NCBI RefSeq assembly: GCF_023015905.1
Contig: NZ_JALKBD010000003.1
Location: 62,001 to 126,000 of the forward strand
Length of the DNA stretch: 64,000 nucleotides
Origin: Arenibacter sp. F20364
GTDB lineage: Bacteria; Bacteroidota; Bacteroidia; Flavobacteriales; Flavobacteriaceae
Direction: 5' to 3'
In this document: piece by piece, positions 28,409-55,571 of the stretch
Layout: each line of letters begins with the position of its first letter
How positions within the stretch are numbered: the stretch's first letter is position 1
Notes under the pieces: generated by a model
Database searches by the model: none
What the model saw: only the letters and a program-made list of their open reading frames with translations
Told to the model about the DNA's origin: nothing
Made by a program: the position numbers and the translations under genes

Positions 28409-29262
28409 TAAAGTTTAGTTAAAATTGAGTTTACTGGTTAATTTTTGATTTACTTCGTAACTGATTAAATGGAATTTGTCCAATCATGCCTAAGTGGTTC
28501 TTATAAAATCCTAGATCAATCAAGTTCTTTACTTTAAGATATTGGCAATTTAGCTTTGGGGTAATTCATTATTTGCCAATTATTCTATCCTTATTTTTGC
28601 AGGTCGTTAGTTTTGAGATTGGAAAACTAATAAATCTATAATTCCACAGTCCAAATTGGCACTAGACAAAAACTAGACAAGGCCAAAATATTGGATCAAT
28701 AGGATTCTAATAGAGATTTGAGTCCGATGTTTCCACATCATATCAAGTATTCAAAAAGCATAAAGAATTCTCTCATATCAAATATATTTTGGTACTGCAA
28801 TTAAAATTTCTCAAAATTATCCTAAGAAAAAGTAACATATGGTTCCAGATCTACAACATATGGTTTTAGGGGTTTTTGGAGAGGTGTCCGTTCCCAAAAA
28901 TGGCTATCAATTACTTATTCCAACTTACGAACCATTAGACAATTCTAGACTATACACTTCGCTCCGATAAAGGAACCATAATTCAGAAGTACCTTATTTG
29001 CGGTAATTACCTTTCTATGACACTATTTTAACCATAATATTTTGGCGCTATGGGTATTAAATTAACAATAGGAGCCTATTTGTATTTCTAATTTCCCATT
29101 CTACCATTGTGGGGACAAATAATTACACCCAATCATATACCAGCGAAATTTAACCGTAGTTAAACCCGCTTTTGACTTCTCAGCTACATTTTAATACCCT
29201 GGATATACAAGCATATGAACAGGATAAAAGAAGTAAATGTGCGTTTAGTTGTCCTATTTAAT
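28409..29262 (-). promoter_or_regulatory. Long upstream region of SusC-1 with two kinds of candidate operator
   Basis: 854 bases with no convincing coding frame on either strand. ACTAGACAAAA at 28661 is followed by ACTAGACAAGG at 28672, a direct repeat with an 11-base period. ACATATGGTT at 28835-28844 is repeated exactly at 28856-28865, 21 bases apart. Further TAGAC half-sites lie at 28936-28940 and 28946-28950. TATATTTG on the minus strand (28786-28779) is a perfect TAnnTTTG box, and CAAAATTA at 28812-28819 is another. If the tandem site drives SusC-1, the mRNA leader would be about 390 bases long. The segment 28960-29262 shows nothing I can name. Confidence 0.5.
28835..28865 (-). promoter_or_regulatory. 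Tandem 21-bp regulator site upstream of SusC-1
   Basis: Two exact copies of ACATATGGTT (plus-strand reading), 28835-28844 and 28856-28865, separated by 11 bases. The same spacing and a related sequence are found at four other promoter regions in the window. Two turns of the helix separate the copies, as expected for two AraC-type domains binding one DNA face. Confidence 0.5.
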
Positions 29263-29823
29263 TTATCTAAGGGATATTTTAAAAACATTGGCAGTTTCAT
29301 CCAATGGTATTCCATCCAACTTTAGCACTAGGGCCTTCTCATTGTGGTTAAACTGAATTTTCTTTCCAGATCCTAGATGAATGATATGTAGGATATCACC
29401 TTTACGTAATTTGAAGTTAGAATTTAGGGATGCAATTTCTAAATCTCCATCCGGTTTGCCCAAACATGTGGCATAGAGGTGGTCCCCATTTACGGTAAAG
29501 CGAATATCTTCCTTGGTGTACTGAATACCCCTTAATTTAGCCCCTGCGGTCTCAAATAGTTTGGCCCATTCATCGGCATTGAAGTTTTCACCCTTAAATT
29601 GGGATAGTAGCTCTTCATTGGACAGGTTCTCCTTTCCTTTTTCATAGCTTATGGTCTGTATGCCCCAATGACAGTAAATTCCAAACTTGGCATCCATAAG
29701 CCATTGTGGGGTATGGTGACTTCTGAGAGAATTCCAAGAAGGAACATATTTATTGTCTTGGGCCAAGACGGCGCTACTGATTGAGAATAACGTAGAAGTA
29801 AGGAGGAAGACTACTTTTTTCAT
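29263..29823 (-). pseudogene. GH29 alpha-L-fucosidase-type gene with an in-frame deletion of the catalytic centre
   Basis: 186 codons in one uninterrupted frame. Residues 1-22 are a signal peptide and residues 28-96 match the GH29 N-terminus (WNSLRSHHTPQWLMDAKFGIYCHWG, FNADEWAKLFETAGAK). From about residue 97 the sequence jumps to the GH29 C-terminal beta domain (EDIRFTVNGDHLYA, VLKL). In the intact GH29 at 33956-35518, the segments corresponding to AGAK and DIRFT are about 310 residues apart. The region carrying the catalytic nucleophile is thus missing without a frameshift. It is the last gene of the sulfatase/GH operon. It cannot be a working glycosidase, but it could still be expressed and secreted. 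Confidence 0.8.
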
Positions 29824-29875
29824 ATTGGTTGGTTTTACAATATTATATTCATTTTACTAATCCATGGTATTATAC

Positions 29876-30856: not shown

Positions 30857-30946
30857 GATAGTTTATTTTAAGTGAACTGAATTTTTATTGGCCTTTCCTG
30901 AATACTGAACCACTTTTTTTATACCTAAAGCTTCAATGTCGGTATT

Positions 30947-32215: not shown

Positions 32216-32281
32216 ACGGATAATTCATGAGGTGGTAGATTAAATATTTGTTTTAAAGGTTTTTGTTATCATTGTGAACTC

Positions 32282-33841: not shown

Positions 33842-33955
33842 TTCTTTCTGGTTTACTTCTTTAATTTATTGATTTTTAATAGGGTTACCAAATAATGAGC
33901 ATGTACTTTTATGACTTGGCAGATCCATTATTTACTTCGGTTTATTTTAAAATTG

Positions 33956-35518
33956 TTATTCGGATATAATCTTAAAGGCGAAAGCATGGGCACCCACTTT
34001 TTTATTGGGCAATTGAATTCTAAGTCCCTTGTCCTCTACCTTAAAGCCCAATGGTTTTTTATAGCCCAATAATTCAATTTTTTTAATTTTCCCAGAGTAA
34101 TATTTGTTGGCCTTTTTTAAGGTATTTATTTGCAACTCCCCATCAGCGGGCCAATCCAAGGCAATGGCGTATAAGACCCCATCTTTGGTCGTAAAGCGAA
34201 TGTCTTTGGAGGTGTTATCCGGATTGCTGCGTTCGCTCAAATGGCCTTCGACCACCTTTGTTCCGCCTTCCCCGTATACCTCAAAAGTTCTTGTGCCATA
34301 TATTGCCTCCCCATTTATCTTTAACCATTGTCCTATTTCCAAAAGTCTTTCCTTCACAGGTTCGGGAATTTCACCGTTGGCTTTGGGGGTAATATTTAAA
34401 AGTACCGCACCATTTTTACTGACCACATCTACCAAAAAATCGATCAGTCTATTAACGGATTTATAATCTGGATTTTTGATGTGGCTCCAGGAATTCCAAT
34501 CAATGGAATCATCTGTTAGCCAGGGAAATTCTTTTTTCTCGCTCATCCGGGCGCGTTCCAGATCCAAAACGGCACTACCTGTGGCAAAATCATAGAACTT
34601 ATAGGTAGATACTACCTCCTGTTTTTTCTTAGTAGCCTGATTGTAATAATATTCTAGAAATTCTTTGCGGTATGATTCTCCAATGACATCCATTTTATTG
34701 TCGAACCACACCAAATCAGGATTGTATTTGTCAATAATTTCCTTTAGCCTATTCAACCATTCCTGATTAAAGCTTTCGTCGGCAAGGGGGTAATATTTTT
34801 TAATTCCAGCATCAATATCATGTGTTGACGGGGGGTATTGAAAGTCGCCCTTTTTCATCTGCGGTCCGTATAGGCCTGCGTATTTGGGGTCGCTCGCGTC
34901 CGTAGTTTCATCCCAAGTAGGAAACCAGCCCAAGAGCCATTGCCTATGAAAGGTGGCAATAAATTTCATATCCCTTTTTCTGATCTCTTGTGCAAGTTCC
35001 TCCATTATATCCCTTTTGGGACCCATTTCTTTGGCATCCCATGAAGTAAGTTTACTATCCCACATAGCAAAGCCATCCGCATGTTCTGAAACGGGCCCGG
35101 CAAATTTTGCCCCAGCTTTTTCAAAGAGATCGGCCCATTCGGCAGCATCAAATTTTTCGGCGGTGAACATTGGGATGAAATCTTTGTATCCAAACTCCTT
35201 CAATGGGCCATAGGTGGCTACGTGGTGGTCGTAAAACTCACTGGCCTTACCGTTCTTGGCTTCAGGGTTATTTTCGTTGACGTACATCCAATGAGCGTAC
35301 CATTCATTTTTAAATTCAGGAACGGAGTAGGGTCCCCAGTGACAATAAATACCAAATTTGGCGTCCAAGAACCACTCAGGGGTCCTGTGCTGTTTTAGGG
35401 ATTCCCAATCGGCTTGATAAGTAATATCTTGTCCCCTATTTTCCTGCAGCCATAGCAAGGTTAAAATAACCAGGAGATACCAGTTGATGGCTGATGTTTT
35501 TATTTTGATTCGTTCCAT
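33956..35518 (-). CDS. GH29 alpha-L-fucosidase-type exo-glycosidase
   Basis: A 520-residue secreted GH29 enzyme with a leader over about residues 1-30. Family motifs: WFLDAKFGIYCHWGPYSVP (49-67), EWADLFEKAGAKFAGPVSEHADGF (127-150), FIATFHRQW, and PDLVWFDNKMD (267-277), in which D273 is the expected nucleophile. A C-terminal beta domain ends HAFAFKII. GH29 removes alpha-L-fucose, and some members act on alpha-L-galactose in porphyran, so both substrates are open. It lies between the GH28 gene (27 bases) and a sulfatase gene in a minus-strand operon. It is the full-length relative of the deleted copy at 29263-29823. Confidence 0.9.
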   Translation of the reverse strand: MERIKIKTSAINWYLLVILTLLWLQENRGQDITYQADWESLKQHRTPEWFLDAKFGIYCHWGPYSVPEFKNEWYAHWMYVNENNPEAKNGKASEFYDHHVATYGPLKEFGYKDFIPMFTAEKFDAAEWADLFEKAGAKFAGPVSEHADGFAMWDSKLTSWDAKEMGPKRDIMEELAQEIRKRDMKFIATFHRQWLLGWFPTWDETTDASDPKYAGLYGPQMKKGDFQYPPSTHDIDAGIKKYYPLADESFNQEWLNRLKEIIDKYNPDLVWFDNKMDVIGESYRKEFLEYYYNQATKKKQEVVSTYKFYDFATGSAVLDLERARMSEKKEFPWLTDDSIDWNSWSHIKNPDYKSVNRLIDFLVDVVSKNGAVLLNITPKANGEIPEPVKERLLEIGQWLKINGEAIYGTRTFEVYGEGGTKVVEGHLSERSNPDNTSKDIRFTTKDGVLYAIALDWPADGELQINTLKKANKYYSGKIKKIELLGYKKPLGFKVEDKGLRIQLPNKKVGAHAFAFKIISE

Positions 35519-35545
35519 ATATTCTACTATTGAGTTTTTAAAGTC

Positions 35546-36940
35546 TTATTTTGTATTGATTTTAGTTAGAGGAACCAAGGTGCGGTTCAAGCGCAATTCA
35601 TTAATGTCTGCATGTAATACGTCGTCCAGTACTATTGGGTTACGTAGATCCTTATTTAGAACAATTAGGTTGAAATTATCCACGACTAGGCCATCAATAT
35701 GTCGTGCGTAAATCCCCGAAGCCGGCAGGGTACCTACCAAACTAAACTCTGGCCACCATCCATTTAGCACTTCTTGTGTATATTCCTTTATTTCCCATTT
35801 ATTGGCATCTTCCGCCGTTCCTCCTCCGGAAACAACAAATTGAACATCCTTTATGGAGATATCCTCTATACGGTGCTCTGGAAATCCGGTCAGGAAGAAG
35901 GCTGAATTTTTATCTAATTTGGAATTATCCACTACAATATTGCTAAAACTAAAGTTGTGCATACTCGTTAAAGGTTCCAGTTCGCCTTCAGGAATATCTA
36001 CGGAAGCACGTTGTGGGGCAAAAGTCATAAAAATAGGCCGTGGCACGTTTTCCATAACCAAATTACTAAAGACCATATTCTTCATTTCACCCCCTTCGTT
36101 CTGTTGAATTTTGAGTCCGGAATCCTGAATGTTCTGGAACGTACAGTTGGTTACGGTAACCGATTCGATATTGCCTCTAGAGAGTAGGCCTATACGCATA
36201 CCGCCCCATTTGGTACTAAAATGGCAATTGCTCACCGTGATATTTTTGCAGGGTCTATCCGGTCGTGAAGCCTGAAGACAGATGCTATCATCACTGTTAT
36301 CAAAATTGCTGTTGACAACGCGAACGTTGGTACATCCATCAAAATCCAAGCCGTCACCATTGTTGTTAACCCGACTTTTAATATTGATGCCGCTGACACT
36401 GATGTTATCGCAATATAACCAAGCCGAAGTCCAGGCTGCCGGATTGATCAAGGTGATATTGTTCAGGTGTATATCGGTTACGTTGACAAACCTGATCATC
36501 ATAGGACGCCCTCCCTTGGCCTTGGTGAAGTTCTTTTGGTAGCCATTCCCGTCTATAGTACCATAACCGTCTATGGCAATGGAGCGGGCATCTTTTGCGA
36601 ATATCAGACAACGATCCATATGGGGTTCGTTTTTATACATATTTTTATGGGTGTCCGTACTATAGTCACTGTAATTTGGACTACCTAAGAGTACGGCGCC
36701 GTTTTCTAGGTGTAGGGTTACGTAATCCTTCAAATAGATGGTTCCGATCAAAACGGTTTTTCCCGAGGGTATAAGCACCCTGCCACCGCCATTTTGGGTA
36801 CAGGCATCGATAGCGCTTTGCACTGCACGGGTGTCCAAAGTAGTCCCATCCCCTTTGGCTCCATAATCCAATACATTAAAGTCTTTGGCAAGCAAGGTCA
36901 AAGGAAGATAGATCAAAATAACAAGAATTATTCTTTTCAT
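35546..36940 (-). CDS. GH28-family beta-helix glycosidase
   Basis: A 464-residue polygalacturonase-fold protein with a signal peptide of about 18 residues (ending TLLAK). The pectate-lyase-3-type start FNVLDYGAKGDGTTLDTRAVQSAIDAC leads into a parallel beta helix. The active-site acids are visible: D199 and D201 in GLDFDGC, and D217-D218 in SDDSICLQAS. The canonical GHG/RIK pair of true polygalacturonases is not evident (KWGGMRIGLLSRGN in the corresponding place), so the substrate is probably not homogalacturonan. It is the second gene of its operon, 6 bases after the first sulfatase. The broken GH28 at 30947-32215 is a distant relative. Confidence 0.85.
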   Translation of the reverse strand: MKRIILVILIYLPLTLLAKDFNVLDYGAKGDGTTLDTRAVQSAIDACTQNGGGRVLIPSGKTVLIGTIYLKDYVTLHLENGAVLLGSPNYSDYSTDTHKNMYKNEPHMDRCLIFAKDARSIAIDGYGTIDGNGYQKNFTKAKGGRPMMIRFVNVTDIHLNNITLINPAAWTSAWLYCDNISVSGINIKSRVNNNGDGLDFDGCTNVRVVNSNFDNSDDSICLQASRPDRPCKNITVSNCHFSTKWGGMRIGLLSRGNIESVTVTNCTFQNIQDSGLKIQQNEGGEMKNMVFSNLVMENVPRPIFMTFAPQRASVDIPEGELEPLTSMHNFSFSNIVVDNSKLDKNSAFFLTGFPEHRIEDISIKDVQFVVSGGGTAEDANKWEIKEYTQEVLNGWWPEFSLVGTLPASGIYARHIDGLVVDNFNLIVLNKDLRNPIVLDDVLHADINELRLNRTLVPLTKINTK

Positions 36941-36946
36941 GCTTTA

Positions 36947-38638
36947 TTACTTGGGTTGAATGATCAATCCCCTTTCAGCTTCACTATCGGCAGTGTACCG
37001 GAGTACCATCGGAGTATCTTCCCCCCTTGCCATCTTTATTTCCATTTCCCATACCGTCCTCATTTTTTCCAGTTCTTTAGTGTAGACCTCGTCCATGGCC
37101 AAATTGGTAGCCTCTTCTGGATCGTTCTTTAAATTAAAGAGTTCTTCATAAACCGCTTGCTCTCCGTTTAGTGGGCCCTCCACAAAATCCCTGTATAGGG
37201 CTATATCCGGGTCGTGGACCTGATATAACATACTGTTCATATTTATATCCATGGCTTTCGCGGTTGCTATTTTTTTACTCGCTGATAGATTTTCATTCTT
37301 GTAATATCTTACGTATTTCCATTCCATGTCCTGTACCGCTTCGCATCTTGGGTTGCCAAATTGGGTGGACCATAAATTTTCGGTATAGAGAAATGACCGT
37401 ACTGCAGTTTCGGAGCCAGCAAGTATTTCGCCTAAATTTTCGCCCTGATAACTATCAGGAATGGCAACACCCGCCATGGTCAACATGGTTGGGGCAATAT
37501 CGATACTTTGCACCAAGGCATCGGAAGTTTTTCCACGAGTAGATTTTTTGGATTTGGGATCAAAAATAATCATGGGTATGTGGGTAGTAACCTCGTAGCA
37601 GAATGCCTTGCCCCCAAGACCGAACTGCCCCATAAAAAGTCCGTGGTCCGAAGTAAAAACTATAACCGTATTCCTGTCCAGTTTCTGATCTTTTAAGGTT
37701 TTTCTAAGTTGGCCTACCAACCGATCTATTCCCGTCATGGCCTCCATTTGCCTTATGTAGCGCTCTCTATGGCCTTCTGGGGTGTCTACATAATTGTAGC
37801 CAAGCTGTCTATCGTTGGCACGGTGTATTTCTTTTGGTAGTTTGGGTGCTACAATGTCTTTTTTGGCCACATAGTTTTTGGGAAGGGGAATATTCTTATC
37901 CCTGTATAATGTCTTATAGATCTCATCGTCGGAATTCCTCATCTCCATACTTCCCGTACCTGCTCCATGGGGGAGGTTAAAGCATACCGATAGCATAAAA
38001 GGCCTATCGGCCGGGCGTTGATCAATGAATTTTAGGGCTCCCTCCAATTTTTGCTCGTTGGATAGAAAGTCCTGTATACCCTCCCCAACTACTTCAACCT
38101 GTGTATCCATTTCAGCATCCTTGAAAATCCCATGTCGTTCCTTAGGGTAGAAACCCAAATGTCCATGACCGGCATACCAATAATCAAAGCTTTTCTCCAT
38201 TACGCCGCTGTCATAACCGCCCTTACCTACCGGCACATGGTTTTTACCTATCCATCCCGTATAGTAACCATTATTGCGCATAACCATGGGATACGTATTT
38301 TTCCACCCCTCTTCGGACATACTGGTTCCCGAATTGAAATTCACACCGTGTTTACGCTCAAATTGGCTGGTAAGTATACTTGCCCGACTGGGAGTACAAA
38401 TGGCACTGGTAATATGGGCATTGGTAAAAAGAACACCGTCTTGTGACAATTTATCCAAATGTGGTGTTTTTACAATTTCGTTTCCTGTGCAGCCCATCAT
38501 TCCGTATTGTTGGTCATCCGTAAGGATGAATATGAAATTGGGGCGTTCCTGTGCCAGGGATTGGGTGTGGGGGGTAATACATAATGTGAAGACTACAACG
38601 AGCAATTGGAAAGTATTTGCTTTCTTATTTTTTTTCAT
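36947..38638 (-). CDS. Secreted S1-family sulfatase, first gene of the sulfatase/GH operon
   Basis: A 563-residue sulfatase with a signal peptide ending SLAQ (residue 30). The formylglycine signature is C81-T-P-S-R with ASILTSQ. The usual GKWH is replaced by GKNHVPVGKGGYD. This is an Asn-for-Trp change next to the catalytic Lys and His, and I believe it is tolerated in some S1 subfamilies. FTSDHGLFMGQFGLGGKAF and YTENLWSTQFGNPRCEAVQ follow in the second half. The first gene of the operon, it is preceded by 412 bases carrying one of the tandem 21-bp motifs. Confidence 0.9.
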   Translation of the reverse strand: MKKNKKANTFQLLVVVFTLCITPHTQSLAQERPNFIFILTDDQQYGMMGCTGNEIVKTPHLDKLSQDGVLFTNAHITSAICTPSRASILTSQFERKHGVNFNSGTSMSEEGWKNTYPMVMRNNGYYTGWIGKNHVPVGKGGYDSGVMEKSFDYWYAGHGHLGFYPKERHGIFKDAEMDTQVEVVGEGIQDFLSNEQKLEGALKFIDQRPADRPFMLSVCFNLPHGAGTGSMEMRNSDDEIYKTLYRDKNIPLPKNYVAKKDIVAPKLPKEIHRANDRQLGYNYVDTPEGHRERYIRQMEAMTGIDRLVGQLRKTLKDQKLDRNTVIVFTSDHGLFMGQFGLGGKAFCYEVTTHIPMIIFDPKSKKSTRGKTSDALVQSIDIAPTMLTMAGVAIPDSYQGENLGEILAGSETAVRSFLYTENLWSTQFGNPRCEAVQDMEWKYVRYYKNENLSASKKIATAKAMDINMNSMLYQVHDPDIALYRDFVEGPLNGEQAVYEELFNLKNDPEEATNLAMDEVYTKELEKMRTVWEMEIKMARGEDTPMVLRYTADSEAERGLIIQPK

Positions 38639-39050
38639 TTTCTATTAGGTATTTTGTTTTAAAAGATAGTCCCGCCTCTGATAGTTGTTTGGAATAACAA
38701 GATGATTTTATTTTGTATGCACCACCGATTATATAGTGAAATCGAAATATCGATATGAAATTCCATATTTATTTTCCTTTCTAGTGCAACAGACTAATTA
38801 AATGATGCAACAGATGATTTATTTCTGTTTATCCGAGTAGGAATTCCTGATAAATCGCTTTGTAGGAAAGGTATGGGGTACATAAAACCATAACCATTTT
38901 CTCTATATAATTGAAGGTTGCAAATAGAATACCGCTTAAACAGCTGGAAATTAAAATGGATCGTTCCCTATGCCCAATAGACCAAATAGCAACTGTTTTA
39001 TAGTTTGATTGGGAACAACCAAATCTGGGAAACCCTACAATCCAAAGAAA
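38639..39050 (-). promoter_or_regulatory. Upstream region of the sulfatase/GH operon
   Basis: 412 bases without a gene. It contains the tandem site at 38789-38819. No clear TAnnTTTG box is found at the spacing seen for the other tandem sites. An imperfect inverted repeat at 38973-39013 (CCCAAT, CAAA / TTTG, ATTGGG) lies 38 bases downstream of the FG-GAP copy 2 stop but has no U-tract. The remainder shows nothing recognisable. Confidence 0.4.
38789..38819 (-). promoter_or_regulatory. Tandem 21-bp regulator site upstream of the sulfatase/GH operon
   Basis: ACAGACTAAT at 38789-38798 and ACAGATGATT at 38810-38819, 21 bases apart. Both are preceded by TGCA, giving TGCAACAGA in each copy. It lies 151 bases upstream of the sulfatase start and matches the geometry of four other sites in the window. 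Confidence 0.45.
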
Positions 39051-42353: not shown

Positions 42354-42365
42354 AAAACAAAATTA

Positions 42366-42400
42366 GTCGGCGATTGCAATATAAATATTGAATCGCCGAC
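42366..42400 (-). terminator. Strong hairpin between SusD-2 and FG-GAP copy 2
   Basis: GTCGGCGATT at 42366-42375 pairs perfectly with AATCGCCGAC at 42391-42400, and an inner CAATAT/ATATTG extends the stem. On the minus strand it is followed by TAATTTTGTTTTATG. It ends 12 bases before the FG-GAP start codon, so it could act as a terminator, an RNA-processing site, or a structure that limits translation of the downstream gene. Confidence 0.7.
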
Positions 42401-42438
42401 ATAAACAAAAAACTAACTTAATTAAACTAACTTCTTTA

Positions 42439-43995: not shown

Positions 43996-44012
43996 GATCT
44001 TTTATTAATATG

Positions 44013-47000
44013 TTAAAATGCAATCTGTAAACCTAGTTGAATTGTCCTTGCTGTTGGATAAGCACTCTCATCCACTCCGGAACTAAAAATTCTTCTGGCC
44101 GATCTTGTATTTCTTCCAACCTCTGGATAGTACCCGGTATATTCTGTTATTGTAAAGAGATTGGTTGCGGAAGCATATATCCTTAATTTGGACATTAGCA
44201 TCTTTTCAGACAAGTCGGACGGAATGGTATATCCCAACTGCATATTCTTTAACCTGAAGTAATCTCCTTTTTCCAAATAGAAGTCGGAAGGCCTTCTGTT
44301 AAATCCAGGGTCAATCTGTGTGTTTCTAGGAATATTAGTGTCCGTATTTGTTGGTGTCCAAGCATTTAATGCATCAGTCAAATATGGCCCTTCGGTATCA
44401 AAGTAACCTCTATATATATTACCGTTCAATATTTTATTTCCGGCTACCCCATTGAAAAATAAGCTTAAGTCCAAATTCTTGTATGTCGCTGTAATATTGA
44501 GACCATACTCAAAGTTGGGTGCAGGGTTACCCAAAAATTTCTGATCGTTTTCATCAATAAGTCCGTCAGGACCACTTCCGTCCGGACCGGCAATATCCTT
44601 AAACTTAAGGTCACCAGCTTGTGGATTATTGTTGTCATTGGCAGCAAGCGCTTCGGCACCGGTCTGATAGATACCTTCAACTACGTAACCAAAGAAGGAC
44701 GAAACTGGTTGGCCAACATCGGTTTTTGTACCTTTTAGTCCGTTAGAGGTAAATTGTCCTTCTATTATAGGAGTAGCGTCTCCCAAGGCAGTTACCGTAT
44801 TGTTCAAAGTTGTAAAGTTTCCACTTATGCTAAAGGAAAAATCTTCATTTACATATTCGGAGTAATTGGCCAAGAATTCAAAACCTTCGTTTTCAATACT
44901 CGCTGTATTAAAGGGAACCCTATTTCCAAATCCGGTGTAAAGCGGAAGCCCTAGCTCGACAAGAACATCTTCGGATTTTTTAAAGAAATAGTCCATTGTA
45001 AAATTCAGCTTATTATTCAAGGCATTAAATTCTAGACCTATGTCGGTCGTCTTACTGGTTTCCCAGGTAATATTCTCGTTTATACCTTTTGTAATGGAGT
45101 ATCCTGTGGCACGGTTTTGACTTTCTCCGATAGGATATTCACTATTTAGGTTCAATTCAGGACTTAATGAATATATTGGGACATTGTCCGATCCAACTTC
45201 CCCATAACTGGCTCTAAGTTTTAGGTCTGTAATGGCAGTAAAATTTTCCATAAAGGATTCGTTACCAATATTCCATCCCAAAGCAAAAGAGGGAAAAGTA
45301 CCCCATCTCAAGTCTTTCTTGAACAGGGAGGAACCATCCCTACGAAGTGTAGCGGTCAATAAATATCTACTGTCAAAAGAATAACTCAACCTACCAAAAT
45401 AGGATTGGATAGTTTTTGTTAGATCTTGTGAAGGAAAGTTTACCTTGTCCTCGGCGGCGGAGGCTACACGAACATCATTGGAAGGGAATTTCCTTGCCAA
45501 TGCACCCAGTGATCTGGTATTGGATACCTGATCGGTATATCCTACTACCGTATTGACATTATGCTTGTTGAATTGTTTGCTGTAGGTTAGCGTATGTTCT
45601 ATAAGGGTTGAAAGGAATTCGGTATTTACCTCGTTCAATTCAGCAAACTGGTTGTTTCCAAATGTAGCTGCGTTGAAAAAATAGGTAGGAGTAAATGTAT
45701 AATTGTTATTGGCATAATAGTCCAAACCTAAATTCAATTTATAGGTAAGTCCATCAAAAACTTCTAAAGATCCCGCTATGTTCCCAAGGACCGAATTTCT
45801 GGTAATAGTTCTGTCTTCAACAGTGGCAAGACCTAAGGAGTTACCCACATTACCAACTCCGTAAAAAGAACCAACAGCTACATTATCGGGTTGATCAGAA
45901 GCGCTAAAATTACCCTCTTCATCATAAATAGCGATGGTTGGCACTAAATCCCTTTCCCTATTAAAATATGGGTTGGGGTTATCTACGGTACGGGTTAGAC
46001 CAATAGTGTTCTCAAGTTTAAACCTACCCATGTTCATAGTGGCATTTACCCTAGCAGTAGTACGTTTATAGTCGGATTGTTTTACAATTCCCTCTTGATC
46101 ATAATGGTTAAGGGAAAGACTGTAGGTGCTGTGTTCATTGCCGCCGTATATTCTGGCGTTGGCATTCATTACCCCTGCAGTGCGCAACGATTCCCTTTGT
46201 ATATCACTATCTATATTTGGATTGAACTGTGCATCATTGGCAGGAAATCTGGGGTTACCATCATTGTCCCTTGCGCGGTTAACGATATCGGCATAGTCCC
46301 TAGCATTGGCCCAGTCAATATTATTAACCGTTTTCTGAAGTCCATAGCTGTAATCCAGGTCAACTTTCATTCCACCGCCTTTAGTTCCTTTTTTGGTCGT
46401 TACAATGATAACACCATTGGCGGCCCTTGATCCATAGATGGCACTAGCGGAAGCATCCTTTAAAACAGAGATACTTTCAATATCACTGGGATTAAGCGTG
46501 GTCATGTCACCAGTAAGCATTCCGTCTATAACATACAACGGTCCGGCATCGGAAAGGGTACTGGAACCACGTATGGTGACCAGGGCGTTGGCCCCTGGAG
46601 ATCCTCCATTTGCCTCTACCCTAACCCCAGCAGTTCGTCCTTGGATTGCTTGCGCAGCATCGTTATAGGTAAATTTGCTTATTTCATCTCCATCGACCGT
46701 GCTCACAGAGCCGGTAAGATCACTCTTCTTCTGGGTACCATAACCAATAACAACAACTTCTTCAAGTTGACTGGCGTCCTCTAACAGGGACACATCAATT
46801 ACAGACTTTCCATTTACTGCCACCTCTGTGGAAACAAAACCTATATAACTAACCACAAGGGTAGAGTTACTATCCGCAGTTATGGCGTAGTTCCCATCAA
46901 AATCAGTTTGGGTTCCATTAGTGGAGCCTTTTACCAAAATATTGGCCCCAGGAAGTGGCTCTCCGGTATTATCCGTGACGTTTCCGGTTATCGTAATCTC

Positions 47001-47096
47001 CTGGGAAAAAACATACGTGGCACTTGCCAACCAAAACAAGGTAAGTAACCAAACCTTGGGTCGGTTTTTTTTCTTAAGCATTTTTAGTGATTTCAT
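44013..47096 (-). CDS. susC: SusC/RagA-family TonB-dependent outer-membrane transporter (pair 2)
   Basis: A 1027-residue transporter with a 32-residue signal peptide (ending YVFSQ). A carboxypeptidase-regulatory-like domain follows (TGNVTDNTGEPLPGANILV), then a plug with VVIGYGTQKKSDLTGSVS, AAQAIQGRTAGVRV and NGVIIVTTKKG, and a barrel ending IQLGLQIAF. It is the first gene of the SusC-2/SusD-2/FG-GAP unit. Upstream, a tandem 21-bp site and a TACTTTTG -7-like box are correctly ordered for activation, giving an mRNA leader of roughly 45 bases. Confidence 0.95.
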   Translation of the reverse strand: MKSLKMLKKKNRPKVWLLTLFWLASATYVFSQEITITGNVTDNTGEPLPGANILVKGSTNGTQTDFDGNYAITADSNSTLVVSYIGFVSTEVAVNGKSVIDVSLLEDASQLEEVVVIGYGTQKKSDLTGSVSTVDGDEISKFTYNDAAQAIQGRTAGVRVEANGGSPGANALVTIRGSSTLSDAGPLYVIDGMLTGDMTTLNPSDIESISVLKDASASAIYGSRAANGVIIVTTKKGTKGGGMKVDLDYSYGLQKTVNNIDWANARDYADIVNRARDNDGNPRFPANDAQFNPNIDSDIQRESLRTAGVMNANARIYGGNEHSTYSLSLNHYDQEGIVKQSDYKRTTARVNATMNMGRFKLENTIGLTRTVDNPNPYFNRERDLVPTIAIYDEEGNFSASDQPDNVAVGSFYGVGNVGNSLGLATVEDRTITRNSVLGNIAGSLEVFDGLTYKLNLGLDYYANNNYTFTPTYFFNAATFGNNQFAELNEVNTEFLSTLIEHTLTYSKQFNKHNVNTVVGYTDQVSNTRSLGALARKFPSNDVRVASAAEDKVNFPSQDLTKTIQSYFGRLSYSFDSRYLLTATLRRDGSSLFKKDLRWGTFPSFALGWNIGNESFMENFTAITDLKLRASYGEVGSDNVPIYSLSPELNLNSEYPIGESQNRATGYSITKGINENITWETSKTTDIGLEFNALNNKLNFTMDYFFKKSEDVLVELGLPLYTGFGNRVPFNTASIENEGFEFLANYSEYVNEDFSFSISGNFTTLNNTVTALGDATPIIEGQFTSNGLKGTKTDVGQPVSSFFGYVVEGIYQTGAEALAANDNNNPQAGDLKFKDIAGPDGSGPDGLIDENDQKFLGNPAPNFEYGLNITATYKNLDLSLFFNGVAGNKILNGNIYRGYFDTEGPYLTDALNAWTPTNTDTNIPRNTQIDPGFNRRPSDFYLEKGDYFRLKNMQLGYTIPSDLSEKMLMSKLRIYASATNLFTITEYTGYYPEVGRNTRSARRIFSSGVDESAYPTARTIQLGLQIAF

Positions 47097-47181
47097 AAAC
47101 TTTTTTGAGTTATTTAGGTTAATTGATAAACAGCTAAAACTGTTGCTTCAAAAGTATGTTTGGTAGTTTTTGTGCAGGGAA

Positions 47182-47212
47182 ACAAATAGGTTAATAAATA
47201 GAACAAATGGTT
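47182..47212 (-). promoter_or_regulatory. Tandem 21-bp regulator site upstream of SusC-2
   Basis: ACAAATAGGT at 47182-47191 and ACAAATGGTT at 47203-47212, separated by 11 bases. It ends 116 bases upstream of the SusC-2 ATG and starts 25 bases upstream of the TACTTTTG box, a position suited to direct contact with RNA polymerase. Confidence 0.55.
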
Positions 47213-47405
47213 TTTTTGGCAATAAATGCACGCATTTTCAACGTTTATCGCAAAATCAAAGGGTTATTTTTGATATATACTCCCAATAATATTTTTGCCT
47301 GAGAAATGAATGGATCAATTGCGTTCCGAGTACATTTTTTTGAAAAGCATAAACAGCCTATTTTGTAGAAATCCTGGAATCCAAGGAAGGGAAAGGCTAA
47401 AAAGA

Positions 47406-47445
47406 AATTCCCGATCTTAAAAATCCATTTTTAAGATCGGGAATT
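47406..47445 (-). terminator. Terminator of the HTCS/sulfatase unit
   Basis: AATTCCCGATCTTAAAAA at 47406-47423 and its exact complement at 47428-47445 form a perfect 18-bp stem with loop TCCA. On the minus strand it is followed within a few bases by CTTTTTAG. It lies 52 bases after the stop of the 559-residue sulfatase gene. Confidence 0.85.
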
Positions 47446-47497
47446 GAGTATACTATTAAAATTGTGTAGTTAAAGCTAATTAAGAAGGGCCTAATTT

Positions 47498-49177
47498 TTA
47501 ATCATTCCAATGCTCATCTATGACCTTTTGGATGTGGGGATAATTCACGTCGGTCTCGTTGAGATCTTCGCGCAAATTGACCAACTGTTCCTTTAAGTCC
47601 GCGATTATATCTTTATATTTCGGGTCTTCATAGGCATTCTTCATTTCCTTCGGATCTTGTTTAAGATCATAAAACTCCCAGGCCACGGGCGTATGGTTGG
47701 TAAAGTCATTGCCCCAACTATCCTTGTTCCATTCAGCATTTGCATCATCGGTATCTACCCAATATTTTCCGTAAAAAAATATTAATTTATGGTCTTTGGT
47801 CCTAATGCCAAAGTGGGCTGGATTTTGATGACGGTGCGCTAAATGCATCCAATAGCGGTAATAGGTAGCTTGCTGCCAGCCTTCCGGTTCCTGCCCAGTT
47901 TCCAATATGGTTTTAAAACTCTGGCCCTGCATATAGTCAGGGGTCTTCCCTCCTGCCATTTCAATTAAAGTGGGAGCAAAATCTGTGTTGTTGATAATGG
48001 CATCGGTGCGTGTTCCTGCCTTAATGGATTTTGGATACCTAACAAAAAATGGCATGCGCATGGATTCCTCATACATCCATCTCTTGTCTATATAATCGTG
48101 TTCGCCCAACATAAATCCTTGGTCTCCGGTATAAACAATAATGGTATTGTCCAAAAGATTTTCCGCTTCCAAATAATCCAGCAATCGCTTTACATTATCG
48201 TCCACACCCTTGACACATCTCAGGTACTTTTTTAAATAATCCTGGTAGACTTTGCTGGTGTATTCTTTTTCATCCCCTGTCATTTCCCACTTTACATATT
48301 CCGATGGGGCAATATCTTCTGCATTCCTATATTTCTTATATACGGTGGTATCGTTCCAATATATATTGTTGGCCTGTCGGCGAATTAAGTTTCGGTGTGA
48401 AACCGAAGATCCTATTATCCTAGTAAGTGAATCGTTCTTGCCCCTAGTAGCTATTGATCCATTATTACCATTATTGTAGAGGCTTTCAGGTTCAGGAATA
48501 AAAGTGTCTGCCAAATAATCCTCATATCGAGGCGCGTACTCAAAATCGTCATGAGGTGCCTTAAAGTGGTGCATTAGAAAGAACGGTTTGTTGGGATCCC
48601 TCTTATTCTTTAAATAATCCAAGGTGATATCCATGATGTTATCAGAGGAATGCCCCTTGGTCTTTACCTTATTATCGGGCCATGATTTTTCACCCCTTAC
48701 CAGAAATTCTGGGTCAAAATAGTCACCTTGTCCGGGCAATACCTTATAGTAATCAAAAGCTGCGGGCTCGTCATGTAAATGCCACTTACCAACAATGGCC
48801 GTTTGGTACCCCAATTTTTTCATCTCTTTTGGAAGATACTGCCTTTCAACCCCAATAACACCTTCAAGGTCCAATACTCCGTTGGTCTGTGGGTATTGTC
48901 CAGAAATAATAGAAGCTCTACTGGGCGTACAGATGGAGTTGTTTACAAAACAATTGTCAAAAATTATTCCTTCGTTGGCAATCTTGTCCAAGTTTGGGGT
49001 CGGATTTAAACCGGCCAACCTACTCCCGTATACACCAAAGCCTTGGGTGGTATGATCATCGGACATGATGTATATAATGTTGGGTTGCGGTTTTACCGGC
49101 GTTTCCTTTTCATTACAGGAAGATAGGATTATTGCAAAAAGCAACAAATATGCTAAACTGTTTTTGTAATTGTACAT
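47498..49177 (-). CDS. S1-family sulfatase lipoprotein
   Basis: A 559-residue sulfatase with a lipobox ILSSC (C21), so it is probably membrane-tethered. The formylglycine signature is C83-T-P-S-R with ASIISGQ. Also visible are MSDDHTTQGFGVYG, GKWHLHDEP, HHFKAPHDDFEYAP, YTGDQGFMLGEHDYIDKRWMYEESMRMPFFVRYP and a C-terminal YDLKQDPKEMKN. The last two resemble sulfatases acting on sulfated polysaccharides and glycosaminoglycans. The intergenic gap upstream (116 bases) contains its own tandem regulator site and a -7-like box, so it can be transcribed independently of the HTCS gene. Confidence 0.9.
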   Translation of the reverse strand: MYNYKNSLAYLLLFAIILSSCNEKETPVKPQPNIIYIMSDDHTTQGFGVYGSRLAGLNPTPNLDKIANEGIIFDNCFVNNSICTPSRASIISGQYPQTNGVLDLEGVIGVERQYLPKEMKKLGYQTAIVGKWHLHDEPAAFDYYKVLPGQGDYFDPEFLVRGEKSWPDNKVKTKGHSSDNIMDITLDYLKNKRDPNKPFFLMHHFKAPHDDFEYAPRYEDYLADTFIPEPESLYNNGNNGSIATRGKNDSLTRIIGSSVSHRNLIRRQANNIYWNDTTVYKKYRNAEDIAPSEYVKWEMTGDEKEYTSKVYQDYLKKYLRCVKGVDDNVKRLLDYLEAENLLDNTIIVYTGDQGFMLGEHDYIDKRWMYEESMRMPFFVRYPKSIKAGTRTDAIINNTDFAPTLIEMAGGKTPDYMQGQSFKTILETGQEPEGWQQATYYRYWMHLAHRHQNPAHFGIRTKDHKLIFFYGKYWVDTDDANAEWNKDSWGNDFTNHTPVAWEFYDLKQDPKEMKNAYEDPKYKDIIADLKEQLVNLREDLNETDVNYPHIQKVIDEHWND

Positions 49178-49251
49178 TGATTAAAAGGCTTTAAAGTGGT
49201 TCAATTATTTAATGGAGGAAAAATACATATATCTGCTCTATAATCGCTAGA

Positions 49252-49282
49252 AGATATGTTCAATTTCCTACTACAAATGATT
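49252..49282 (-). promoter_or_regulatory. Tandem 21-bp regulator site upstream of the 559-residue sulfatase
   Basis: AGATATGTTC at 49252-49261 (degenerate) and ACAAATGATT at 49273-49282, 21 bases apart. On the minus strand TATTTTTC (49225-49218) is one base off the TAnnTTTG box, and the gap from it to the site is 26 bases, close to the 25 seen for SusC-2 and the HTCS gene. Confidence 0.45.
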
Positions 49283-49293
49283 TTTATGCGTGT

Positions 49294-51108: not shown

Positions 51109-51110
51109 AT

Positions 51111-54100
51111 TTAATTGGTTTCTGATTTAACTTCGGTATTCATTTTGCCCACGTACTCGCTGGGAACAACACCAAATTGTTTTTTAAAACATTTTGAAAA
51201 GTATGAGGCGGTATTGAAACCGGTCATATACATGATCTCCTTAACAGAAAGATCGCTCTGATCAAAGAGTTGAACTGCACGCTTCAGTCTAACATTTCTG
51301 ATAAATTCACTGGATGACAAACCTGTTAGTTCTTTGAATTTTAGGTAAAGGTTGCTCCTGCTCAAACCCATTTCGCTCACCATCATCTCCACATTGAAAT
51401 CTGTGTTCATCATATGCTTTTCAACAATTTGGATAGCCTGACTCAAGAATTTTTCATCCATTGTAGTCACTGTTACCTCATTGGGTTGCAGCGTAATATC
51501 CCTATTGAAACGTTTCCTCATCTGCTCGCGACGTTTCACTATATTGGAAAGCTTAAGTTGCAATAACTCAAAACTGAAAGGCTTTCTCAAATATTCATCC
51601 ACCCCCAATTGCAAGCTCTGGACTTCACTTTCTTGGGAGGATTTCGCTGTTAATATTATTATGGGGATATGACTTGTTTCCTGGTGTTCTTTCATAGCCT
51701 TACAAAAGGCAATACCATCCATAACGGGCATTAAAATATCACATATAACTATATTGGGCATTGTTTTTTTGGCAATTTCAAATCCCTCTTCACCGTTCTC
51801 CGCCTCATAAATTGCATAATTTTTGTTCACAACCTGTTTTATAAAACTGCGTATATCCGGATTGTCATCCACAATTAATAATACCGGTAATTTGGATCTT
51901 GATTTTGACAAACTCTCATCTATGAGGTCGTCGTTCAGACCAATGGCAAAGGATTCCGTTTCAGAGGACCGCACAAGAAAATCGTTGTCAGAAACATCTT
52001 TGCAACTAATTTCTTCAATATTCATATAAGCATCTTTATCCTTAGGAAGCCATACTTTAAATTTAGTACCCAGATTGGCCTTGCTGCTAACCGTTATGCC
52101 TCCTTGGTGCAATTCAATCAAATTTTTGGAGAAAGACAAGCCTATTCCCATTCCTTCGCGATTAATAGAGCTATCCTCCTTTGCCGTATGAAAGCGTTCA
52201 AAAATACTGGAAAGTTTATCCTTGGGGATACCCAAACCAGTATCTTTGACCTGTATTACTATTTGATTTTGGCCATGACGAACCTTTTCCGAAATCTTGA
52301 TGCGGATTTGTCCCCCGTTTTGGGTGAATTTAAAAGCATTGGAAAGAAGGTTGTTTATAATCTTTTCCATGGCGTCATGATCGAACCACGATTCTATATT
52401 GGGATTGGCAGTTTCAATACTAAAAAGGATGGATTGTTTGTGGGCCATAAATTGGAAAGGCTCTGCTACTTCCTTTATAAAGGATACAATATCGCTATTA
52501 CGCATTACCAGCCTCATTTTACCTTGGTTCAGCTTCCTAAAATCCAATAATTGGCCAACAAGTCTTAGAAGGTAATCCGTATTTTTATGCATCAAGGCAT
52601 ATTGTTCCGCGAGGGCCTTGCTATCCACTTTTCCGATGTTCTTTTGCAAATATTCCAAGGGCCCCTTAATAAGTGTAAGTGGGGTGCGGAATTCATGGGA
52701 AATATTTGTAAAAAATTCCAACTTAATTTTTTGAAGTTCCTCCGACTTTTCTTTTTCAACATGTTCCAACTCCAATTGATGTTTTTTAGAGGTTCTGATA
52801 AAGGTGTATCGGTAGAAAAGCCATAATAGGCCAAGGACCAAAAGGAAATAACCAACAAAGGCCGTACGGCTATACCACCAGGGAGGTGCAATGGTCAATT
52901 TTAATTGGGTAGGGTCTTGATCCCAGAAGCCATCATTGTTGGAGGCCTTCACCTTAAAAGTGTATTTTCCAGGTGCTAAGTTGGTGTAAGTTGCGAAACG
53001 TTTTTTTGCAGTGGTCTCGGTCCATCCTGTATCAAAACCTTCCAACATATAGGCAAACTGATTTTTGGAGGGTGCTGCAAAATGTAAGGCTGCAAACTCA
53101 AATGAAAAATTATTTTCACCGTACTCCAATAAGATTTCATTGGTTTTGTTAATGCTTTTATCCAGTATTATTCTCCCGTTAACCTCCTCACCAATGTCGA
53201 TAGACTTGTTGAATATTAGTAAGTCCGTAATAACCGTTTTGGCAGGAAATTCATTAACTCCTATTTCTTCCGGATTGAAGGCATTGAAACCGTTGATACC
53301 TCCAAAAAGCATTTCTCCATCGGATCTTTTAACACAGGCCAGTTCTTGAAATTCATTATCTTGAAGTCCATCGCTCTCATTATAGTTTTTAATTTGTTCT
53401 GTTTCAGGGTCGAATTGAGAAAGCCCTTTATTGGTTGAGAACCATAGGTTACCATCGTTATCTTCCAAAATTCCTTTTATAACATTGTTGGGCAGCCCAT
53501 TTTTTTCGGAGTAGGAAACAAAAGTAGGATTCGAATCATCGGTTCCTTTAATCAGTTTATTAAGTCCGCCCCCAAAGGTGCCTATCCATAGGTCGCCTGA
53601 TTTGCTCTCGTACAACGAGAGGATGTAATTATGACTAAGGGACGAGGCATTTTCCGGATGGTTCTTGTAGGTTACAAATTTAGGTCGTTTTTTGTAACGT
53701 TCCTGGGCGGAAATCATGCATAATCCATTGCCGGTCGCAAGCCAAATGTTACCTTGACTATCTTCAAGAATACTTCTTATAATATCACTTGGAACCGAAT
53801 TGGTGCTATTGGCATAATGGCTAAAGACCTCCTTTTCATATACTCCTTCAATTTCTGTACGCAGCCATCTATGTACGCCCGAGCCATAGGTTCCTATCCA
53901 AATATTTTGCTCGGAATCCGTTAATAAACTAAAAACGCCACGCATTAGCTCTTGTGGCACTAAGTTTTTTTCAGATATGTTGTTGGGGTCACTAATATCC
54001 AATTGAAAAAGCCCTGGCGCGCTCTCCGTACCTATATAAAGTATTTTTCTATTGCCTATTTGCGTCTCCGTTAAGGCAAATGTTCTTTGGATAGAGTTAA

Positions 54101-55340
54101 AATGTTTAAACGCATTATAGGTCCCATTGTCATTTTTTTCGGTCAACATGTTCAGACCGCCACCTTCGGTTCCTATCCATAAGGTCCCATTGCTATCCTC
54201 GTACATAGCCCTTATTTTATCATAACTAAGGCTATTGGGATCAGAAGTATTTCTGATATGTCTAAACTTCTTCCTTCCCGGGTCAAGGGTATTCACCCCT
54301 CCCCCATTGGTCCCTATCCATATTATTCCAGTGCTATCCAAGAATAGGGATTTAATAATATTTTTGCTGATACTCGCCGGATTCCTTGAATCATAAACAA
54401 AACGATCCGTGAATTTTGGCAAATTTTCTCCAGAAGTATTTTCAAAAAGAAAGAGGCCATCATTGGCACCTGCCCATATTCTATTTTCATTGTCTACCAA
54501 TAAGGCAACAAAATTTCCGTCATACAGCTTCCGAAGTTTTTCACCCTGACCTTTGACCTGACAATAAATACCTAGGCCAGTGGCTACAAATAGCCTACCA
54601 GTGGCATCTTCCTCAACGTCCCGAACGGCAACATTAGGTAGCCCAAGGTCTTTGGTTATGCTCCCGAAATAATCCCTGCCTTCTGCATCCTTTGACAATT
54701 TAAACAAACCTGAAGCGCCGCCCACCAATAATTGACCATTTTTATCTTCATAAATAGTATGTACCATGGTTCCGTCCCATCCAGCAATAAAAGGAGCCTG
54801 TTCCGAGTTATAATGTTGAAAAACAAGTTCATTGGATGTAGACGAAAGGTCGGTCATATCCAACCCATTCCGAGTACCCAGCCATAATCGTTTTTTACTG
54901 TCCAAATAAACATTGGTTATATGATCACTGGACAAACTGTTACTATCTCCATCCTTGTGCCTGTAATGGGTGAATTTACCTGTGGTAGCATTGAAAAAAT
55001 TTAAGCCACTACCTGTTGTGCCTATCCAAAGGTTACCATCTTCATCACCAACAATGTCATATATTAAATTGCTATTGATGCTACCTGGTTTGTCATTGTC
55101 CGGATTGTACACGGTAAAACTATATCCATCATACTTATTAAGTCCGTCATGGGTTCCAAACCACATGTATCCAAATTTGTCCTGATAGATATCATTGACG
55201 TCGCTTTGGGAGAGACCATCTTTGGTGGTAATATGCTTAAAATCGATTATTTCTTGGGCGAACCCTATAACAGAGGATATTAGAAATACAGATGTCCAAA
55301 AACTTATAAGCCAGTTGATATGGTATATTTTGAATTTCAT
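51111..55340 (-). CDS. Hybrid two-component system sensor/regulator (HTCS)
   Basis: A 1409-residue one-protein sensor and transcription factor. Order of domains: signal peptide (1-29); about 14 reg_prop propeller repeats (for example DVNDIYQDKFGYMWFGTHDGLNKYDGY) to about 690; a Y_Y_Y domain near 735-815; a transmembrane helix at about 827-847; HisKA with H882 in NISHEFRTPL; HATPase with N-box NNLLSNAFKF near 996-1005; a receiver domain 1152-1265 with phosphoacceptor D1201; and an AraC-type helix-turn-helix at about 1300-1400. HTCS proteins sense an oligosaccharide in the periplasm and activate SusCD and enzyme genes. The gene has its own tandem 21-bp site upstream, suggesting autoregulation. 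Confidence 0.95.
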   Translation of the reverse strand: MKFKIYHINWLISFWTSVFLISSVIGFAQEIIDFKHITTKDGLSQSDVNDIYQDKFGYMWFGTHDGLNKYDGYSFTVYNPDNDKPGSINSNLIYDIVGDEDGNLWIGTTGSGLNFFNATTGKFTHYRHKDGDSNSLSSDHITNVYLDSKKRLWLGTRNGLDMTDLSSTSNELVFQHYNSEQAPFIAGWDGTMVHTIYEDKNGQLLVGGASGLFKLSKDAEGRDYFGSITKDLGLPNVAVRDVEEDATGRLFVATGLGIYCQVKGQGEKLRKLYDGNFVALLVDNENRIWAGANDGLFLFENTSGENLPKFTDRFVYDSRNPASISKNIIKSLFLDSTGIIWIGTNGGGVNTLDPGRKKFRHIRNTSDPNSLSYDKIRAMYEDSNGTLWIGTEGGGLNMLTEKNDNGTYNAFKHFNSIQRTFALTETQIGNRKILYIGTESAPGLFQLDISDPNNISEKNLVPQELMRGVFSLLTDSEQNIWIGTYGSGVHRWLRTEIEGVYEKEVFSHYANSTNSVPSDIIRSILEDSQGNIWLATGNGLCMISAQERYKKRPKFVTYKNHPENASSLSHNYILSLYESKSGDLWIGTFGGGLNKLIKGTDDSNPTFVSYSEKNGLPNNVIKGILEDNDGNLWFSTNKGLSQFDPETEQIKNYNESDGLQDNEFQELACVKRSDGEMLFGGINGFNAFNPEEIGVNEFPAKTVITDLLIFNKSIDIGEEVNGRIILDKSINKTNEILLEYGENNFSFEFAALHFAAPSKNQFAYMLEGFDTGWTETTAKKRFATYTNLAPGKYTFKVKASNNDGFWDQDPTQLKLTIAPPWWYSRTAFVGYFLLVLGLLWLFYRYTFIRTSKKHQLELEHVEKEKSEELQKIKLEFFTNISHEFRTPLTLIKGPLEYLQKNIGKVDSKALAEQYALMHKNTDYLLRLVGQLLDFRKLNQGKMRLVMRNSDIVSFIKEVAEPFQFMAHKQSILFSIETANPNIESWFDHDAMEKIINNLLSNAFKFTQNGGQIRIKISEKVRHGQNQIVIQVKDTGLGIPKDKLSSIFERFHTAKEDSSINREGMGIGLSFSKNLIELHQGGITVSSKANLGTKFKVWLPKDKDAYMNIEEISCKDVSDNDFLVRSSETESFAIGLNDDLIDESLSKSRSKLPVLLIVDDNPDIRSFIKQVVNKNYAIYEAENGEEGFEIAKKTMPNIVICDILMPVMDGIAFCKAMKEHQETSHIPIIILTAKSSQESEVQSLQLGVDEYLRKPFSFELLQLKLSNIVKRREQMRKRFNRDITLQPNEVTVTTMDEKFLSQAIQIVEKHMMNTDFNVEMMVSEMGLSRSNLYLKFKELTGLSSSEFIRNVRLKRAVQLFDQSDLSVKEIMYMTGFNTASYFSKCFKKQFGVVPSEYVGKMNTEVKSETN

Positions 55341-55540
55341 ACAATTAAACTACGATTTCTTAATGAAAACGATCCAAGAACCTGTGACTAATTTGTCCAA
55401 ACAGCCCCAAATAAAGGTGATTTTAACATCCATTGTGAAATTCTAAAGATCGGCATCCCATTTGTTTTTTAATGACCTATCATTGTAAACTTGAAGCCAT
55501 TAATTTCCAAAATTACAGCAAATAACCCTTTTGTTCTACA

Positions 55541-55571
55541 ACAAATGGTTTCGAGGCTATATCAAATGATT
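55541..55571 (-). promoter_or_regulatory. Tandem 21-bp regulator site upstream of the HTCS gene
   Basis: ACAAATGGTT at 55541-55550 and TCAAATGATT at 55562-55571, 21 bases apart. The first copy is identical to the second copy of the SusC-2 site. The TAATTTTG box lies 25 bases downstream on the minus strand, the same gap as at SusC-2. Confidence 0.55.

Follow-up and report, generated by a model that had tools for sequence, protein, structure and literature searches.

Seven tandem 21-bp sites as candidate operators of a hybrid two-component regulator in an Arenibacter polysaccharide utilization locus

At araI1-I2, E. coli AraC, a free sugar-binding regulator, uses direct half-sites approximately 21 bp apart that lie upstream of the −35 region and extend as far as it, at a promoter read with a different sigma factor from the promoters considered here. 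The AraC-type hybrid two-component systems (HTCSs) encoded beside SusC/SusD pairs in Bacteroides have sites of similar build: in the accessible part of Ravcheev et al. (2013), all 16 predicted HTCS motifs are direct repeats, averaging 21 bp, that suit dimers on one DNA face, and some of the regulons include sulfatases (heparin, hyaluronan) (PMC3878776). Here we analyze a 64,000-nucleotide stretch of the 5.74-Mb genome of Arenibacter sp. F20364 (G000; contig NZ_JALKBD010000003.1, our C116:62001-126000; hereafter the window), in which a preliminary description had proposed that five promoters share a tandem motif with 21-bp spacing and form a candidate HTCS regulon. All five sites stand, as do their spacing, their conservation and their co-occurrence with the HTCS. 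The total, however, is seven, with two more sites just left of the window, and the architecture itself is not new because 21-bp tandem HTCS sites were already published for Bacteroides. We conclude that the sites are very probably operators through which the HTCS encoded at 51111-55340, apparently the best candidate for the protein that binds them, controls a single regulon.

The regulator belongs to the HTCS class. Pfam finds a presumably periplasmic sensor fused with kinase, receiver and AraC-type parts in one polypeptide, and the protein is encoded alongside SusC/SusD pairs and glycan-degrading enzymes. Its domain order is that of BT4124 and BT4663, and its receiver carries the S/CHIP motif that most HTCSs have, as defined for those proteins, with SHIP at residue 1223. 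In the accessible text on BT4124 and BT4663, this motif goes with DNA binding that is suppressed until phosphorylation (PMC11253607).

The sites are likewise comparable to those of Bacteroides, as two direct half-sites approximately 21 bp apart upstream of polysaccharide utilization locus (PUL) genes, kept in several genomes and accompanied by an AraC-type HTCS beside SusCD. This likeness, drawn from the part of PMC3878776 available, is one of architecture, with the letters outside the comparison. Unlike the Bacteroides regulons described there, the present one lies in Flavobacteriia and in a marine sulfated-galactan context, has a 25-bp step to the −7 promoter box, and includes sites at the HTCS's own promoter and at two SusCD pairs. 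The carrageenan regulon of Zobellia galactanivorans is also a marine flavobacterial sulfated-galactan system with dispersed targets and an AraC-type regulator, but that regulator, CgrA, is an AraC-family factor and not of the HTCS kind, and the covered parts of the report give no operator for it (PMC5698469). Two further site types were considered and rejected: a SusR-type operator needs a SusR-like regulator and a direct repeat with a center distance of 67 or 77 bp, against 21 bp here, and the Bacteroides Crp (BT4338) site is the palindrome wwwTATGTTnTAnAACATAwww, whereas the present repeat is direct, not inverted.

In the open-licence literature (mostly titles and abstract openings, no supplements), we found neither a flavobacterial HTCS operator nor a fixed distance from operator to −7 box; the accessible text of PMC12125979, on a non-HTCS xylan regulator of Vibrio whose direct repeats are AT-rich, and that of PMC11501099 concern no HTCS operator. 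The interpretation first given for the window is the established HTCS scheme applied to a new regulator in another bacterial class. What appears newer, as far as the DNA can tell, is the membership of the regulon, its broad conservation among marine Flavobacteriaceae, the constant distance to the −7 box, and the hint that other HTCSs retain 21 bp while using different letters.

All ten 10-mers of the preliminary description were found with the coordinates and letters given there. The five target genes within the window lie on the minus strand, and the half-sites are therefore read in gene orientation, where their consensus is AAYCATWTGTTnYA (core AAYCATWTGT), repeated 21 bp apart. In order, the pairs are AACCATATGT/AACCATATGT, AATCATCTGT/ATTAGTCTGT, AACCATTTGT/ACCTATTTGT, AATCATTTGT/GAACATATCT and AATCATTTGA/AACCATTTGT. 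The first of these, 423 bp upstream of the SusC-1 start, is the sole match without mismatches to AAYCATWTGT x2 in the genome. We scored 112 kb around the locus (C116:28001-140000) with a composite matrix trained on relatives, window excluded, whose training sites were initially found with a matrix built from the window's ten half-sites (the window-only matrix). Seven matches reached 9 bits, every one of them scoring at least 25, where a Markov null for the same 112 kb expects 0.05 at 16 bits or more. The two additional sites precede a DUF5107/CBM9 gene pair and a GH29 gene (Table 1).

The 21-bp spacing is well above chance. On the window's plus strand, three pairs with no more than two mismatches in total to ACAAATGRTT lie 21 bp apart, against a mean of 0.02 for the 49 other spacings between 11 and 60 bp. 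Relatives were found through the HTCS (65 loci and 20 more, partly of the same species), and 84 of the 85 loci were scanned, leaving out that of the source genome. In these 84, some of which overlap because a species can contribute both a short and a long locus, the window-only matrix found 64 intergenic pairs of at least 18 bits at 21 bp, and the remaining spacings between 11 and 40 bp had 0–7 apiece; coding sequence in the same scan had no peak (1 pair at 21 bp). Counting identical pairs once in the 65-locus set left 54 at 21 bp, against 0–7 per other spacing. The plain pattern with up to two mismatches behaved similarly in 55 close loci (HTCS at least 48% identical, one fragment), with 35 pairs at 21 bp and 0–4 elsewhere, and gave zero pairs at 21 bp in 17 distant loci. 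Self-similarity that presupposes no motif points to the same distance: among 349 upstream regions of the orthogroup, 47 have at least 11 of 14 matches at 21 bp, compared with 4–20 at spacings of 14–33 bp.

The sites are also conserved, with at least one of 15 bits or more in 50 of the 55 orthologous loci. Within the genus we compared A. hampyeongensis (G005, two stretches), A. palladensis (G015, five) and A. aquaticus (G016, three), the last being the closest named relative by its HTCS (85% identity). Orthologues of all seven target genes are preceded by sites, each in at least one of these three species. The SusC-1 operator has a counterpart in A. palladensis at equal distance (461 versus 460 bp, far end); the orthologous SusC-2 gene is preceded by sites in A. 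palladensis and A. aquaticus, the 559-residue sulfatase in all three, and the sulfatase of the GH28/GH29 operon in A. aquaticus. Genes downstream of 127 sites of at least 15 bits match HTCS (20), SusC (20), GH29 (22) and sulfatases (16); since the self-complementary CATATG can score on both strands, some of the 127 are counted twice.

Across genomes, the motif keeps to the company of this HTCS. The pair is not as frequent at random intergenic sites, given the 21-bp excess in relatives and the confinement of close matches to the locus: in the source genome (5.7 Mb), all four matches with up to two mismatches fall here, within 57 kb on the PUL contig. Among 18 members of the genus, the four with an HTCS at least 60% identical have 4, 4, 6 and 6 such matches (reversed control 7 in total), and the other 14 have 13 together (reversed control 18). 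All six matches in A. palladensis and five of six in A. aquaticus lie on the HTCS contig. A pattern allowing three mismatches gave 16 matches in the source genome against 19 for its reversal, with 14 and 11 at spacings of 23 and 18 bp; it was too loose, so two mismatches and the matrices were used instead. Nine loci of other HTCSs in the source genome contain nothing above 14.3 bits, and 49 non-orthologous HTCS loci from 18 genomes (796 kb) have six matches of at least 15 bits, compared with 127 in the matrix's own training loci, the 55 orthologous ones (1,298 kb). We attribute the sites to this HTCS because the motif tracks its orthologues while those nine loci are empty at that level. The attribution also draws on own-promoter sites, since among 54 orthologous loci 20 have a site facing the HTCS gene and 33 have one of either orientation within 700 bp upstream of it, and on the DNA-binding domain, approximately 82% identical on average in the orthogroup (55 sequences) and 43% for other HTCSs (48).

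At several of the promoters, TAnnTTTG, the −7 box of flavobacterial sigma-A promoters, lies at a fixed step from the operator. The preliminary description had placed an exact box 25 bp downstream at SusC-2 and the HTCS, a one-mismatch box at 26 bp at the 559-residue sulfatase, a weak one at SusC-1 and a poor one at the sulfatase/GH operon. Each placement was borne out, the 25-bp position having two mismatches at SusC-1 (AAATTTTA) and three at the sulfatase/GH operon. The sixth and seventh sites have one-mismatch boxes (TATATTTA and GATATTTG, respectively) at exactly 25 bp; over all seven sites, an exact or one-mismatch box lies at 25 bp in four and at 26 bp in one. We then counted boxes at 56 relatives' sites, chosen by the repeat alone and scoring at least 18 bits with full context, weaker ones having been dropped before counting; the composite matrix was trained under the same restriction. 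In 26 of them, a box with at most one mismatch starts exactly 25 bases past the second core, and no other offset from 0 to 109 has more than 5. With similar sites removed, the box is at 25 bp in 12 of 24 (other offsets: mean 0.3, maximum 3).

At the usual spacing, a −33 element would coincide with the 3′ tail of the proximal half-site, and the matrix from the relatives' sites shows the −7 box and no separate −33 element. If the box is taken to span −12 to −5, as TAnnTTTG does in the accessible account of Flavobacterium psychrophilum (PMC9723704), the two cores lie at −68 to −59 and −47 to −38, so that the proximal one reaches the place of the −33 element. The fixed distance from operator to −7 box points to direct contact with RNA polymerase.

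Several observations weigh against a single regulon under the HTCS. The exact boxes at SusC-1 are 15 and 48 bp downstream, not 25, and the sulfatase/GH operon has only a one-mismatch box, at 17 bp. By consensus, the sulfatase/GH site (five mismatches) is indistinguishable from background, as seven pairs with up to five mismatches occur at 21 bp against a mean of 3.5 and a maximum of 7 at other spacings; the 559-residue sulfatase site (four mismatches) is marginal, with four pairs of up to four mismatches at 21 bp, where other spacings average 0.6 and reach at most 2. Both are clear under the relatives' matrix (25.5 and 31.3 bits, respectively), but the sulfatase/GH site, taken singly, could be nonfunctional. 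The later steps are partly circular because the window matrix made the initial selection of sites in relatives; this does not affect the spacing counts, the motif-free tests or the box offset. Five of the 55 orthologous loci have no site of at least 15 bits, in 21 of 54 the 700 bp before the HTCS gene lack one, and for 49 of the 127 sites no gene downstream matches a window protein. Off the HTCS contig lie two of four close matches in A. hampyeongensis and one of six in A. aquaticus, and loci of other HTCSs account for the six matches of at least 15 bits noted above. Finally, one site adjoins the gene of another AraC-type regulator, and genome G014 carries a site without having a close orthologue of the HTCS.

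The last two points bear on an AraC-cupin protein encoded directly left of the GH29 site (L131:12094-12936), to which the sites might belong. Its family fits, since binding to tandem sites roughly two helical turns apart is also known for AraC-type proteins, and close orthologues (86–91%) are present in G014 and in the three Arenibacter species above, which carry sites too; weaker homologues (52–64%) occur in G018 and G028. G014 keeps an open 278-residue copy (TAG is its stop) and, behind the AraC-cupin gene, its one operator-like site (L153:8769, 25.8 bits). The −7 box of this site is degraded (AAAATCTA) and a GH29 gene does not follow; the site is perhaps a relic, although it is also readable as support for the AraC-cupin protein. 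Against such a role, the gene is found in 2 of the 55 HTCS loci (flanks of up to 10 kb), while sites are found in 50; G034 has no homologue at E<=1e-40, though its HTCSs are 54–57% identical; and the gene itself lacks a convincing site (best pair 0.2–10 bits within the 250 bp upstream, in five species), whereas the HTCS promoter has one. A tandem-like element approximately 150 bp before the gene (L131:11948, C116:53948-53978; three mismatches here, two in A. palladensis, partly alike in five species) was not counted as a site because of those low scores. Distribution does not cleanly separate the two regulators, since in Zobellia uliginosa (G018) the 64% homologue is on one of two HTCS contigs, approximately 22 kb from that HTCS. 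Overall, we consider control by the AraC-cupin protein, the chief alternative to the HTCS, improbable.

It is very improbable that the operators are shared with another HTCS of the genome or with a global regulator. The genome encodes approximately ten HTCS-like proteins (12 matches, some partial), and related HTCS groups share motifs in Bacteroides, according to the available part of PMC3878776. The other HTCSs, however, are 33–42% identical in the kinase-regulator part, the nine loci empty above 14.3 bits are theirs (a count that omits a partial match on C108), every close match in the genome falls in this locus, and the repeat is direct, unlike the published Crp palindrome. Chance resemblance within AT-rich promoter DNA has next to no probability: by consensus, one of the five sites does not stand out and another is borderline, and the three-mismatch pattern is at background genome-wide, but spacing, conservation, genome localization and box offset are all far from random, which refutes chance for the set as a whole.

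In the HTCS regulon that we infer, the periplasmic propeller would sense an oligosaccharide set free from a sulfated galactan of red algae, and the kinase would phosphorylate the fused receiver, freeing the AraC-type domain from inhibition. Two such domains would then occupy the tandem half-sites AAYCATWTGTTnYA on one DNA face (21 bp, two turns), with the proximal half at the −33 place, as expected for an activator touching RNA polymerase directly. The targets would be the two SusCD pairs, sulfatases, GH28 and GH29 enzymes, the DUF5107/CBM9 pair and, as feedback, the HTCS itself.

The GH117 operon, which has no site, would be under other control. The preliminary description had seen no tandem site there and proposed split control. 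Both points hold, because only the seven sites reach 9 bits in the 112 kb and the orthologous operon in A. palladensis has no site of at least 12 bits upstream. GH117 is the label of that description; Pfam gives only GH43-like for the enzymes. A TPR protein (window 16030-17676) with a weak C-terminal match to a sigma-70-region-4-like helix-turn-helix (HTH), and a weak SusR-family match far below cut-off, may be a candidate regulator of the operon.

By Pfam, the locus contains two SusC/SusD pairs, sulfatases, GH28, GH29 and GH43-like enzymes and one HTCS, together with an aldehyde dehydrogenase and an enolase-superfamily enzyme. Known pathways suggest that its substrate is a red-algal galactan, either agar or porphyran. 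Cytochrome P450 and ferredoxin reductase are associated with methyl-group removal from porphyran galactose, and the P450 and ferredoxin-reductase-like genes left of the locus (L131:9134-11887) would suit a porphyran locus.

Table 1. Candidate operators, −7 boxes and genes of the locus. Positions are window coordinates unless a contig or locus is named; L131 is the coordinate frame of the locus reaching left of the window
Feature	Position	Strand	Score or basis
SusC-1/SusD-1 tandem operator, perfect AACCATATGT x2	28831..28868	-	33.8 bits composite, 30.1 pair only
Sulfatase/GH28/GH29 operon tandem operator, weakest site	38785..38822	-	25.5 bits
SusC-2/SusD-2 tandem operator, strongest of the region	47178..47215	-	38.1 bits
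559-residue sulfatase tandem operator	49248..49285	-	31.3 bits
HTCS own-gene tandem operator (putative autoregulation)	55537..55574	-	32.7 bits
Sixth site, before DUF5107/CBM9 gene pair	-1051; L131:18949-18986 = G000:C116:60949-60986		32.6 bits
Seventh site, before GH29 gene	-6919; L131:13081-13118 (C116:55081)		36.1 bits
SusC-1 exact box TAATTTTG, 15 bp downstream of operator	28812..28819	-	
SusC-2 exact −7 box TACTTTTG, 25 bp downstream of operator	47149..47156	-	
559-residue sulfatase one-mismatch −7 box TATTTTTC, 26 bp	49218..49225	-	
HTCS exact −7 box TAATTTTG, 25 bp downstream of operator	55508..55515	-	
HTCS, 1409 residues, proposed regulator	51111..55340	-	Pfam: Reg_prop propeller, Y_Y_Y, HisKA, HATPase_c, receiver, AraC-type HTH
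SusC-2 TonB-dependent transporter	44013..47096	-	Pfam
SusD-2, after SusC-2	42439-43995		Pfam
SusC-1 TonB-dependent transporter	25388..28408	-	Pfam
SusD-1, after SusC-1	23743-25398		Pfam
559-residue sulfatase	47498..49177	-	Pfam Sulfatase
Sulfatase, GH28, GH29 gene run	33956..38638	-	Pfam
DUF5107/TPR gene and CBM9 gene, part inside window	100..3308	+	operator approximately 1 kb left of window

Three features of the neighborhood deserve mention. In the long SusC-1 leader, a noncoding block (window 28593-28688) is kept, 81% identical to A. palladensis, with two TTGTCTAG words 11 bp apart on the minus strand; it is possibly a second control element. An Rfam scan of window 20000-57000 found no structured leader before SusC-1 at gathering thresholds. 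Between the SusC-1 operator and an intact sulfatase (window 29263-32170) is a run of four short open reading frames (186–326 residues), three of which have partial GH29, GH43 or GH28 matches; the run resembles decayed enzyme genes, and within it 30898-31271 is 85% identical to a GH29 region of A. aquaticus. Beside the HTCS, at window 55821-63997, are a PorP/SprF-type protein and a 2391-residue open reading frame with SprB repeats and a CHU_C type IX secretion signal.

The spacing seems to extend to other HTCSs. In 210 upstream regions of the 49 non-orthologous loci, some of them mutually orthologous, repeats with at least 12 of 14 matches number nine at 21 bp, including one simple-repeat 14/14 match, versus 0–2 at spacings of 14–33 bp, and their letters are unlike the present motif. 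Repeats accompanied by a box number 19 at 21 bp versus 1–12 at other spacings. For the nine other HTCS loci of the source genome alone (39 regions), 21 bp has the highest mean, from few cases, one 14/14 match being a simple repeat. At one other HTCS locus, seen in both the source genome (L136, G000:C149) and A. aquaticus (L188, G016:C4), two copies of approximately GGATTGGTTGA stand 21 bp apart and are followed by a TAnnTTTG box, and this repeat may represent a candidate second HTCS regulon. The odds seem evenly balanced that the HTCS promoters of Flavobacteriaceae share one geometry whatever their letters, with a 21-bp direct repeat, a −7 box approximately 25 bp on and the proximal half replacing the −33 element; the fixed 25-bp step was measured for the present HTCS orthogroup only. 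If this is true, HTCS regulons would be readable from sequence before their motif is known.

For marine Flavobacteria, the sites provide a testable regulon for an algal-galactan locus, with an explicit matrix and promoter register, that carries over to scanned loci of Zobellia, Maribacter, Aquimarina, Polaribacter and others. With them, the 21-bp rule of Bacteroides HTCSs reaches Flavobacteriia and gains a fixed distance to the −7 box.

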